A DNA stretch of 61,435 nucleotides from Candidatus Yanofskyibacteriota bacterium (GTDB lineage: Bacteria > Patescibacteriota > Minisyncoccia > 2-02-FULL-40-12 > IGHO2-01-FULL-4-A), in NCBI GenBank assembly GCA_903897805.1, contig CAIUCV010000021.1, forward strand, positions 1 to 61,435, in the 5' to 3' direction. The position numbers and the translations under genes were made by a program. Below, piece after piece: positions 33,384 to 36,337 of this stretch. The notes under the pieces were generated by a model. It saw only the letters and a list, made by a program, of their open reading frames with translations, made no database searches and was not told the origin of the DNA. Within the stretch, counting starts at the first letter, position 1. Every line of letters starts with the position of its first letter.

Positions 33384-33412
33384 TTGACAAATAAATATAA
33401 AAGGAGTATAAT
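33384..33412 (+). promoter_or_regulatory. Sigma70-like promoter of DGR variable protein
   Basis: TTGACA(33384-33389)-17 nt-TATAAT(33407-33412). Confidence 0.85.
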
Positions 33413-33454
33413 TAAGGTATAACAATAAAGTTCTTTTATACTAAAACTTACAAT

Positions 33455-33503
33455 TTTGCCACAGCAGAGAGCGCCTTGGGCGGACTTTCTCTGCTGTGGC
33501 AAA
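33455..33503 (+). promoter_or_regulatory. Long 5'-UTR hairpin of the DGR variable protein
   Basis: 16-bp perfect stem TTTGCCACAGCAGAGA/TCTCTGCTGTGGCAAA, 17-nt loop. Confidence 0.85.
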
Positions 33504-33575
33504 GCGAAGGCTGAGCCAAATCAAAACAGCGCAACGGACGTGTTCCGAAAGAACGTGTCCAAAGGAGAACGTGTC

Positions 33576-34253
33576 ATGTTTGACAAGTTTACTTTCAGTA
33601 GTGCCGGTGAAGTTCAAGAGGTAGAATTCGCTCTAGCTAGGGCGTGCTATACCCACCCCGAGGTCAAAGAGTTGTCGAAGGGCGATCTCTTGGGCCAGGT
33701 CCGCCAAATCATCCTTGGCCAAGCCGTAATCAAGCCGGTGGCCGAGGATGCCACTCGGGAGATCACTCTCAACGAAACCACGATCGTGGTGAACCTTGGT
33801 GCCGCACCTAAGCTACCATTCAATGGAGCAGAGGTCGAGAGCCACGCCGGCGAGGGTTGGGCTATCGTCGAGAAGAGTCCCGACGGATTGTATGTGAACG
33901 GCCGCAAGGTCGTATTGCATCTGTCCCGTCGGCAGCAGAATGGCAAGTCGCTCAAGGGCTACGAGCTTCGTGAAGAGCTGACGGGTAAGCCCGTACTCAA
34001 CGCGAATCTGCTCGACACGCTCGCAGACAACTCCCACCTCATACCCGAGGACTGGAAGAAGGACGAGCAGGGTAACACCCGCTACATCTTCTTCTGGGGC
34101 ACCATTTACCGCAGCTCGCGCGGCCACCTCTGTGTCCGCTATCTGTATTTCCACGTTGGGATGTGGGATCGGTACTACGACTGGCTTGACTACGACTGGC
34201 ACGGCAGCCGCCCCGCGGCTCTGCTCGCAAGTAGTAGGTCCTTGGACTTTTGA
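33576..34253 (+). CDS. DGR variable (target) protein, C-type-lectin-like C-terminus
   Basis: SD AAAGGAG then ATG at 33576; C-terminus RYIFFWGTIYRSSRGHLCVRYLYFHVGMWDRYYDWLDYDWHGSRPAALLAS carries the VR. Confidence 0.92.
   Translation: MFDKFTFSSAGEVQEVEFALARACYTHPEVKELSKGDLLGQVRQIILGQAVIKPVAEDATREITLNETTIVVNLGAAPKLPFNGAEVESHAGEGWAIVEKSPDGLYVNGRKVVLHLSRRQQNGKSLKGYELREELTGKPVLNANLLDTLADNSHLIPEDWKKDEQGNTRYIFFWGTIYRSSRGHLCVRYLYFHVGMWDRYYDWLDYDWHGSRPAALLASSRSLDF
34107..34230 (+). repeat. DGR variable repeat (VR)
   Basis: 124 bp aligning to TR 34623-34746 at constant offset 516 without gaps; 16 mismatches, all at TR adenines. Confidence 0.97.
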
Positions 34254-34258
34254 ACCTT

Positions 34259-34274
34259 GGGTCCTCTTGGACCC
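34259..34274 (+). other. Hairpin downstream of VR (possible retrohoming hairpin/cruciform)
   Basis: GGGTCC TCTT GGACCC, 28 nt after the VR 3' end, within a GGTCCTTGGA-type repeat. Confidence 0.6.
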
Positions 34275-34338
34275 TTGGAACTTGGTCCTTGGAGCCGGCA
34301 ATTTTGCCGAAACGCTTTCCAGATATGCGTTCAACTGG

Positions 34339-34370
34339 AACCCTGCATGAAGTCTTGTGCGGGGTTTTTA
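34339..34370 (+). terminator. Terminator of variable-protein gene
   Basis: AACCCTGCA...TGCGGGGTTTTTA (9-bp stem with one G-U). Confidence 0.75.
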
Positions 34371-34403
34371 CTTTTTGATTTAATTTTGTGTTAAGATGTG
34401 TTT

Positions 34404-34445
34404 GGCAGTAGGCGAATATGTGGGAGATTACGGTTTCCTGCTGCC
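34404..34445 (+). ncRNA. 5' leader hairpin of putative TR RNA
   Basis: GGCAGTAGG / CCTGCTGCC (9 pairs, one G-U) about 180 nt upstream of TR. Confidence 0.5.
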
Positions 34446-34622
34446 GAACCCAGTATCCATACATTGAGAATATCTCCGACCAAGGTTTGAGATAGAGTGA
34501 TGTATGCAGAAACTTCAAAAATGAAGCTACTTGGTATAGGATGCTAGGGCATTACGATGCCGAATACGATACAGCCTTGAGAGTTATTCAATGGGCAGTG
34601 GCAAGGAAGGCATTCTATACGC

Positions 34623-34746
34623 AACCGCAACTCGAACGGCAACCTCTATGTCCGCTATCTGTATTTCAACGATGGGATGTGGAATCGGAACTACAACTGG
34701 CTTGACAACGACTGGAACGGCAACAACCCCGCGGCTCTGCTCGCAA
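34623..34746 (+). repeat. DGR template repeat (TR)
   Basis: Adenine-rich, AAY-enriched copy; translated in VP frame NRNSNGNLYVRYLYFNDGMWNRNYNWLDNDWNGNNPAALLAT. Confidence 0.97.
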
Positions 34747-34752
34747 CTTACT

Positions 34753-35112
34753 TCATTTCTCTCCCTTATTGGGAGAGTTTTGTTTTTGTAGCTGGCCATA
34801 CCAGCCACCGAGCATCCTGCCAATCTCGTCTATTTTTACGGATAGAGCTATATATTTCTTATTGTCCAAAGACTTGGTTTCCCAGAGTATCATCAAGAAT
34901 ATTTTTAATGTATCAACTTTTCTTATTGCTAGGCGGACATACGGTAGCTTTTCTTCACGCACCAAGAAACTAGCGGTTGCCAGTGCTTCTATGATTTCAA
35001 CGAAGAGAGCATCAATTCTGACGCCAAGCGAGTGCCTATGTGTTTTGGGTATAATTTGATAATATTCATACCAAAGCAAATAAGCACTTTTTACTTTCTG
35101 AAGCAGAGGCAA
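34753..35112 (-). CDS. avd: DGR accessory variability determinant (Avd)-like four-helix protein
   Basis: PLLQKVKSAYLLWYEYYQIIPKTHRHSLGVRIDALFVEIIEAL...VDTLKIFLMILWETKSLDNKKYIALSVKIDEIGRMLGGW; TTG start as annotated. Confidence 0.88.
   Translation of the reverse strand: MPLLQKVKSAYLLWYEYYQIIPKTHRHSLGVRIDALFVEIIEALATASFLVREEKLPYVRLAIRKVDTLKIFLMILWETKSLDNKKYIALSVKIDEIGRMLGGWYGQLQKQNSPNKGEK
34759..34787 (+). terminator. Probable TR-RNA terminator (inside antisense avd 3' end)
   Basis: CTCTCCC TTATT GGGAGAG TTTTGTTTTTG, 12 nt after the TR end. Confidence 0.75.
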
Positions 35113-35117
35113 GAGCT

Positions 35118-35129
35118 GGGGGGGGGGGG
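35118..35129 (+). repeat. Poly(G)12 homopolymer between avd and RT
   Basis: agct + 12 G + ctta. Confidence 0.9.
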
Positions 35130-35147
35130 CTTAGAAGAGGTATTTTT

Positions 35148-36137
35148 ATGAAAATCCAATTGGCTCATAATTATGAGTATATCATTTCTCTTGAAAATCT
35201 CCTTAATGCATGGAAGGAGTTTATTAAAGATAAAAAATTAAGGAAAGATGTGCAAATTTTTGAACTGGATCTGATGGGCAATATCATTTCGCTCCACAAC
35301 GATCTTGCCGCCAAAATATATAAGCATTCACCGTATCAGCCATTCAATATCTCAGATCCCAAGCCAAGAAAAATACACAAAGCTAGCGTCAGGGATCGGC
35401 TATTGCACCACGCTATATATCGGGCACTCTATCCATTTTTTGACAGAACTTTTATATCCGATTCTTATTCTTGCAGACTAAACAAAGGGACGCACAAAGC
35501 CATAAATAGGTTCTGTAATTTTGCATATAAGGTATCACAAAATCATAAGAAAACTGTGTGGGTTCTCAAGTGCGATATTAAAAAGTTTTTTGCTTCAATT
35601 GACCAAGATATTCTAGCCGAAATCATTAGAGATTATATACCCGACCCAGATATTGTCTGGCTTATCTCTCGAATCATCAGGAGCTTTTACTCAACGAATA
35701 TTGGTGTCGGTTTGCCCTTGGGAAATCTAACCTCACAGCTTCTGGTTAATATCTATATGACTAGGTTTGACCAATTTGTGAAGCATACACTAAAGGCAAA
35801 ATACTATATCCGCTATGCTGACGACTTTGTTATTTTATCTCCAGACAAAAAATGGCCTGAGGAAACAATTCCAAAAATCAGAGATTTTTTATGGAATAAA
35901 CTTCATCTTCAGCTACATCCAGATAAAGTATCAATTCAAACACTAACATCTGGTGTCGATTTTCTCGGTTGGGTGCACTTTCCAAACTACAGGGTTTTGA
36001 GGACCACAACCAAAAAGAGAATGTTTAGGAATATAAAAAATAAACAAGGGAATATAAATACGGTGCAATCTTATCTTGGGCTTATTAGTCATGGAAACTC
36101 AAGAAGATTAGAAGCAAGATTAGGGATTACCGATTGA
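35148..36137 (+). CDS. DGR-type reverse transcriptase
   Basis: VGLPLGNLTSQLLVNIYMTRFDQFVKHTLKAKYYIRYADDFVIL (xxDD catalytic box, GNLTSQ motif); SD AGAAGAGG. Confidence 0.96.
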   Translation: MKIQLAHNYEYIISLENLLNAWKEFIKDKKLRKDVQIFELDLMGNIISLHNDLAAKIYKHSPYQPFNISDPKPRKIHKASVRDRLLHHAIYRALYPFFDRTFISDSYSCRLNKGTHKAINRFCNFAYKVSQNHKKTVWVLKCDIKKFFASIDQDILAEIIRDYIPDPDIVWLISRIIRSFYSTNIGVGLPLGNLTSQLLVNIYMTRFDQFVKHTLKAKYYIRYADDFVILSPDKKWPEETIPKIRDFLWNKLHLQLHPDKVSIQTLTSGVDFLGWVHFPNYRVLRTTTKKRMFRNIKNKQGNINTVQSYLGLISHGNSRRLEARLGITD

Positions 36138-36168
36138 GAGCATAGAGTAGTATAATTATTAAAAACGC

Positions 36169-36313
36169 AGTCGTAATGCCTTTTGGGCATTCCAGCGAGC
36201 GGATTGCTTGGTTAATTTTTGATATAATGTTTCGGCATCAAAAATTAAATCCGTGAGCTGAAATAGCGTAGCCGCCGCTGGAGCGGCGGAGCGTGCCCAG
36301 AAGGCATTATGAC
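36169..36313. repeat. Structured element C (possible relative of A/B) downstream of RT
   Basis: GTCGTAATGCCTT/AAGGCATTATGAC outer stem, TTAATTTTTGAT/ATCAAAAATTAA, CCGCCGCT/AGCGGCGG; CCAGCGAG loop motif. Confidence 0.7.
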
Positions 36314-36337
36314 GGAGTTTGTAATTTAATTCAAGAA

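Follow-up and report, generated by a model that had tools for sequence, protein, structure and literature searches.

The comparative analysis of a diversity-generating retroelement (DGR) locus from a Patescibacteria genome outlines a system in which avd most likely acts as a phase-variable switch for mutagenic retrohoming, and in which the template repeat (TR) appears to be carried by a short RNA gene of its own. Taken together, a DGR with a separate TR RNA bearing a structured 5' domain and with a repeat-based avd switch is, in our judgement, very probably the best overall explanation of this locus and its relatives. The locus is located on a 61-kb contig (61,435 nt, hereafter termed the window) belonging to a 622-kb genome that is 90% complete.

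Components and layout of the retroelement

In DGRs, a reverse transcriptase (RT) acting with Avd copies TR into cDNA, introducing errors opposite adenines, and the cDNA then replaces VR. The window locus is a genuine DGR, complete and chromosomal, because the mismatches between VR and TR are confined to adenines and because both the RT and Avd match the corresponding protein families (Table 1). VR and TR lie 516 bp apart and differ at 15 of 123 positions, with all 15 differences falling on TR adenines (33 in total), a result with a chance probability below 3e-9 if mismatches are assumed to be randomly placed. No further copy of either repeat was detected anywhere in the 622-kb genome, and the search for a second target in this genome yielded only a paralogue on C17 with no DNA-level match to TR.

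Table 1. Features of the DGR locus, in window coordinates.
Feature	Position	Strand	Evidence and remarks
Promoter of target gene (TTGACA-17 nt-TATAAT)	33384..33412	+	12/12 consensus matches
Variable (target) protein gene, 225 aa	33576..34253	+	Open reading frame (ORF); ATG with AAAGGAG upstream
VR	34108..34230	+	At 3' end of target gene; 15 mismatches to TR, each falling on a TR adenine
Terminator-like hairpin between target mRNA and TR RNA gene	34337..34368	+	14-pair stem and T-run
Putative extended -10 (TG-T-TAAGAT) of TR RNA gene	34389..34397	+	TGnTAnnnT (at least 4 of 6) at this site in 44/59 relatives; shuffled expectation 4.0
Structured 5' domain of TR RNA, 220 nt	34404..34623	+	Covariation; no Rfam match; start placed from the putative -10
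3' arm of 12-bp closing helix (helix 6)	34612..34623	+	10/12 pairs with compensatory change; ends at base before TR
TR	34624..34746	+	Unique in genome apart from VR
avd body (frame open to 35130)	34753..35112	-	PF22296 (bAvd) 7.7e-11, above cutoff; NF033474 1.8e-18, below its own cutoff; phrog_3206 ("Avd protein of DGR") 1.1e-15; dN/dS
Terminator-like hairpin with T-run, downstream of TR	34757..34787	+	Begins 10 nt after TR; antisense to avd 3' codons; 71/78 loci have one at most 70 nt from TR, shuffled expectation 3.7
Frame opened by conserved avd ATG	35091..35168	-	Stops after 25 aa with C12, giving a dead-end peptide
C12 tract inside avd, proposed phase switch	35118..35129	-	Only C9+/G9+ tract in genome; repeat at this place in 133/152 loci
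RT of DGR type, 329 aa	35148..36137	+	phrog_1423 1.2e-107; RVT_1 1.2e-22; PDB 8ub7 4.3e-41
Candidate extended -10 (TG-A-TATACT), 7 nt before avd ATG	35176..35184	-	Sequence; consensus over relatives GAAATgATATctTCATAatTATG; weak, overlaps RT codons

The best family match of the RT is phrog_1423 and its best PDB sequence is the BPP-1 bRT, the next PDB match (4e-19) being 22 orders weaker, while group II and retron models score far below their cutoffs. The minus-strand ORF matching the Avd families is the only Avd in the genome, and presented no sequence match in PDB. VR is contained at the 3' end of the open target ORF, relatives of which are present in 57 of 384 genomes of the class. By homology, and given the A-only differences, RT and Avd would here copy TR and the product would replace VR, so that a small target protein of this Parcubacteria (Patescibacteria) cell would be diversified in its C-terminal part. 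The original prediction, formulated without database searches, had proposed a complete DGR in a CPR-like genome, with a promoter-driven target gene, VR at its 3' end and TR at the distance reported above, an Avd-like gene and a DGR-type RT. All these parts were recovered where it had placed them, including a perfect promoter sequence, the Avd matches returned by all three models and A-only mismatches, and the DGR relatives of the locus belong to the Parcubacteria and other Patescibacteria. Its alternative of an RT grouping with retrons or group II introns finds no support in the profile and PDB matches, on which the assignment is based. Neither Pfam, where no family scored above cutoff, nor Foldseek (best E-values 0.31 for PDB and 0.11 for BFVD) confirmed the proposed C-type-lectin-like C-terminus of the target, despite a confident AlphaFold model (pLDDT 95-98 over most of residues 61-220). 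A search for the target protein in viral contigs found none.

Relatives of the locus were collected by RT similarity in a first set and in a second set extending across the phylum. The avd gene is encoded opposite to the RT in 128 of the 138 first-set loci with avd (repeats included) and in 62 of 63 second-set loci. The ten first-set loci that deviate are phage-type contigs, their RT being approximately 30% identical. Among CPR-type loci with a detected avd, the gene is opposite to the RT in all but one. Loci with a detected TR/VR pair all run target, TR, inverted avd and RT. TR is encoded on the same strand as the RT, and its 3' end usually lies within a few tens of nt of the avd stop; in the window, the 5' ends of avd and RT overlap head to head by 21 nt. 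The arrangement VP> TR> <avd RT> is the rule across this whole Patescibacteria lineage. The original prediction was correct in pointing out a departure from the co-directional layout, but understated what is a property of the whole lineage, and it missed both the apparently independent TR RNA gene and the probable repeat-based avd switch that accompany the inverted layout.

The putative TR RNA gene

The interval between the target gene and TR spans approximately 250 to 470 nt and, as judged from sequence features, TR appears to constitute its own short RNA gene of about 380 nt, comprising a putative promoter, a 5' domain, TR and a terminator-like hairpin. Separate transcription of RT and TR had been deduced earlier from rare inversions (PMC3521204). 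The fold of the 5' domain is shown by covariation. Its consensus structure encompasses 57 pairs in 33 sequences, with 97.0% of cells paired versus 82.9% in shuffled controls and 43 pairs presenting compensatory change versus 27.7 (0 of 500 shuffles, which, like the other shuffle controls here, leave relatedness in), and sliding the structure by 1 to 3 columns lowers the paired cells to about 52% or less. A covariance model (R1) built on the 5' half of the domain, for which E-values are rough, identified it in many loci that were not used for training, some of them from distant RT lineages, and did not match the canonical phage-type loci (L016-L027).

In the DGR of Bordetella phage BPP-1, the spacer bound by RT-Avd sits 3' of TR (PMC12875486). 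No BPP-1-type sense spacer is present between TR and RT in the window, where the hairpin and antisense avd are found instead. Since antisense avd occupies the place of the 3' spacer, we infer that the 5' domain is its replacement; given its position and conservation, it would take over the role of recruiting RT-Avd and framing the template. The alternative is a DGR RNA of BPP-1 type, with a functional 3' spacer located on the avd antisense and a 5' region serving some other purpose, such as control of the target mRNA. The binding of BPP-1 RT-Avd to RNA 3' of TR and the raised synonymous codon conservation at the avd 3' end both speak for this arrangement, but the latter is confined to the last codons, at the site overlapped by the terminator-like hairpin, and the 5' domain covaries strongly, ends at the TR boundary and follows what appears to be its own promoter. 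We regard this alternative as unlikely. The antisense avd body was also considered as a conserved 3' spacer and rejected, with codon conservation lying near expectation in all but the last bin, that of the terminator-like hairpin.

The simple repeat at the start of avd

The conserved avd ATG (position 35168 on the avd strand) opens a frame starting MSQLDFHKN and is followed in this assembly by a C12 tract that leaves it out of frame with the Avd body. Replacing C12 with C10 or C13 would restore Avd in full, with 137 or 138 aa, respectively, and the most likely reading of the sequence is hence that the switch is OFF in this assembly and would be ON with either of those lengths. The avd ORF as originally listed begins at a TTG immediately 3' of the 12-C tract, which could act as a weak start for the Avd body. 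The placement of the candidate -10 just upstream of the ATG weakly suggests a leaderless avd mRNA.

The region was compared across 152 distinct loci, for which the predicted ATG was taken as the avd start. A simple repeat is present at the same place, between the ATG and the Avd body, in 133 of them, comprising 115 mono-C tracts, one other homopolymer, 11 dinucleotide, five tetranucleotide and one pentanucleotide repeat; the remaining 19 loci have none, and a search for units of 3 and 6 nt found no instance in the 152 loci. The relatives share the ATG context, which is mostly followed by C7 to C14, and the other units (CT, GA, CA, AACC, CAGC, ACGA, CAAT and ACAGG) form tracts of up to 47 nt, reaching (GA)23, (AACC)10 and (ACAGG)8. 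Strong repeats were identified in 129 of the 152 loci, compared to 245 of 19,990 background windows (1.2%).

The ATG and the Avd body share a reading frame in all 19 repeat-less loci and in only 21 of 131 repeat-bearing ones (Fisher P = 2.4e-13), and the former result validates the choice of the upstream ATG. When mapped on an RT tree comprising 149 loci, the presence of a repeat shows clustering (13 changes versus a shuffled mean of 18.2; 0 of 200 shuffles as low), whereas neither the frame state (56 changes versus 54.5) nor the ON/OFF state (19 versus 18.8) carries phylogenetic signal, in shuffle controls that leave relatedness in. Random frame on a clustered repeat is the prediction of fast switching acting on an inherited repeat. 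Furthermore, dN/dS values of the Avd bodies range from 0.07 to 0.09 between the window locus and two relatives (L112 and L004), all three out of frame, which indicates that the Avd protein is made at least at times. The repeat differs among four loci (L044, L047, L058 and L129) with nearly the same Avd body (nonsynonymous difference of 2-5%), which present no repeat, AACC, ACGA and no repeat, in frames 0, 1, 2 and 0, respectively; L046, with a slightly more distant body, presents CAGC. In-frame loci (16%) are fewer than the one third expected under neutral lengths (P = 1e-5, uncorrected for relatedness). This excess of OFF frames calls for a bias towards OFF, as if most cells were OFF.

These comparative data are best read as follows. 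An unstable simple repeat, C12 in the window, separates the predicted avd start codon from the Avd body, and replication slippage would reversibly shift the body in and out of frame in each cell lineage, turning Avd, and with it hypermutation, on and off. The avd gene presents three features of contingency genes, namely a repeat unit not divisible by 3, random frame and a body under purifying selection. In other bacteria, reversible switching by simple repeats close to the start of a gene is known (PMC2831843). When the BPP-1 DGR was rebuilt in E. coli, removal of Avd resulted in the lowest repair of all knock-outs, approximately 1e-9 (PMC12875486). Given that Avd is essential in BPP-1, a switch of the avd frame would also be a switch of retrohoming.

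Other functions of the tract may also be considered. Transcriptional slippage or ribosomal frameshifting could take place there, providing a constant small share of Avd at any tract length and no heritable switch. Long C runs can slip in transcription, and random frames among loci are also to be expected if length is irrelevant. However, slippage by RNA polymerase is unlikely on the 2-, 4- and 5-nt repeats, up to the longest tracts reported above, the two out-of-frame states are about equally frequent, so that no single direction of shift would serve, and repeats of this length should themselves undergo length changes during replication. This explanation ranks slightly below that of an antisense spacer, and we deem it rather unlikely. 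A programmed frameshift of fixed direction was rejected, given that both out-of-frame states are common.

It is considerably less probable that Avd starts 3' of the tract, at the TTG in the case of the window, with frames of no relevance and a repeat that is either an unrelated spacer or, within the RT leader, a G-rich element. The first core codon is TTG in 31 of 91 repeat-bearing first-set loci and the tract also precedes the RT start codon, both in favour of this scenario; yet 21 of 75 out-of-frame first-set loci have no ATG, GTG or TTG 3' of the tract before core codon 16, and the upstream ATG is in frame whenever the repeat is missing. A downstream start would also leave unexplained why a repeat is kept without its sequence and why 3- and 6-nt units are absent. 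The least credible proposal is that frame disagreements in a plain DGR reflect assembly errors or a decayed avd: homopolymer lengths in draft metagenome assemblies may be off by one, and C8 to C14 tracts are prone to such errors, but di-, tetra- and pentanucleotide tracts give the same frame picture as C tracts, errors would not place a repeat at one site in 133 loci, and decay is rejected by the strong purifying selection on the bodies of out-of-frame pairs.

Relation to known systems

The window locus resembles the BPP-1 DGR (mtd, avd, TR, brt) in its RT and Avd families, in the A-only differences between TR and VR and in the location of VR at the target 3' end. In BPP-1, however, avd, TR and brt share a single operon in which TR is preceded by avd and followed by a structured spacer (PMC12875486), whereas the window presents an inverted avd with an unstable repeat, no sense 3' spacer and a structured domain 5' of TR. 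The IMG/VR contigs L016-L027, with canonical avd, likewise share TR/VR, Avd and an RT approximately 30% identical, but their avd is co-directional with and upstream of TR, and a spacer separates TR from RT. A pattern search for the avd switch in viral contigs did not return any match. A further related group is the Patescibacteria/CPR-restricted DGR clade (clade 2, Roux et al. 2021, PMC8144416), which shares with the window the host group, a chromosomal location and targets without recognisable domains, and which presents lower-than-average measured activity in metagenomes.

With respect to regulation, avd resembles the phase-variable contingency genes of Neisseria, Haemophilus and Campylobacter, which have simple repeats near the 5' end of the coding sequence, units not divisible by 3 and random frame among relatives. 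The products of those genes are for the most part surface structures or DNA methyltransferases, whereas the gene switched in the window would control a targeted mutator. Our literature search found nothing joining DGRs, avd and phase variation and, in the papers covered, no mention of an inverted avd, a repeat-controlled avd or a 5' TR RNA domain; Paul et al. 2017 and Wu et al. 2018 fell outside its coverage, and a prior mention there is possible.

It is probable, if somewhat less so than the reading of the locus itself, that Patescibacteria DGRs are gated in single cells by a hypermutable avd repeat and define a new class of stand-alone TR RNA, with the recognition domain located 5' rather than 3' of TR. 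If confirmed, the 5' RNA domain and separate TR transcript would represent a second way to build the DGR template RNA, and a design with a separate TR RNA may help in rebuilding DGRs as tools. As to the timing of DGR activity in nature, a review supposes suppression in stable conditions (PMC8867640). The avd repeat switch would fit the lower activity of CPR DGRs (PMC8144416) and, if true, would provide a simple and testable answer to the question of timing for the whole phylum, in which hypermutation would be a bet-hedging state adopted by a minority of cells.

Elements flanking the target gene and the RT

Between its promoter and its start codon, the target gene has a perfect inverted repeat, TTGCCACAGCAGAGA ... 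TCTCTGCTGTGGCAA, which lies in the 5' leader of the mRNA. Immediately 3' of the VR and the target stop codon lies a run of CCTTGG/CTTGG repeats, and relatives show a similar pattern. This run may act as a homing signal, a role that a stem-loop fulfills in the DGR of Bordetella phage BPP-1. A second inverted repeat (32 nt, 84%, arms 104 nt apart), immediately 3' of the RT, occurs only once in the genome.

The RT presents a good ribosome binding site, AGAAGAGG, with the ATG 7 nt downstream. Since this site is located between the C12 tract of avd and the RT start codon, a longer or shorter tract could affect the RT leader as well.

Coordinates of the features described
Feature	Sequence	Position
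Inverted repeat, target mRNA leader	window	33456-33504
CCTTGG/CTTGG run	window	34250-34300
RT ribosome binding site	window	35134-35148
Inverted repeat 3' of RT	window	36158-36325
Target paralogue	own-genome contig C17 (locus L216)	~82463-82984 (L216:2464-2985)
C13 tract	L008	2592-2604
TR RNA 5' domain, two copies	L066	7491-7610; 2776-2884
G10 tract	L066	~1576

A distant paralogue of the target protein

Another contig of the same genome, C17, encodes a distant paralogue (31% identical) of the DGR target protein, the N-terminus of which resembles a signal peptide (MRTLKVFLPILLVTLVSIASGQ). No TR match was found in this paralogue, which may be a DGR target that has been retired or has become fixed.

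Related loci with and without a repeat in avd

The DGR at L008 has an avd devoid of the repeat, and a C13 tract a short distance 3' of the RT end. Four IMG/VR contigs (L012, L013, L014 and L015), with RTs 46-48% identical, likewise encode an inverted, in-frame avd without the repeat; they could stem from viruses that infect Patescibacteria, or be host contigs that were misplaced.

The TR RNA 5' domain appears twice within 5 kb in L066, which also contains a G10 tract and probably comprises two adjacent DGRs. A relative from the same family (G007) harbors four DGRs (L217, L218, L219 and L220), each with a separate avd repeat (C10, C9, C9 and (CT)10) and with mixed frames, and hence the switch states of these four DGRs could combine.
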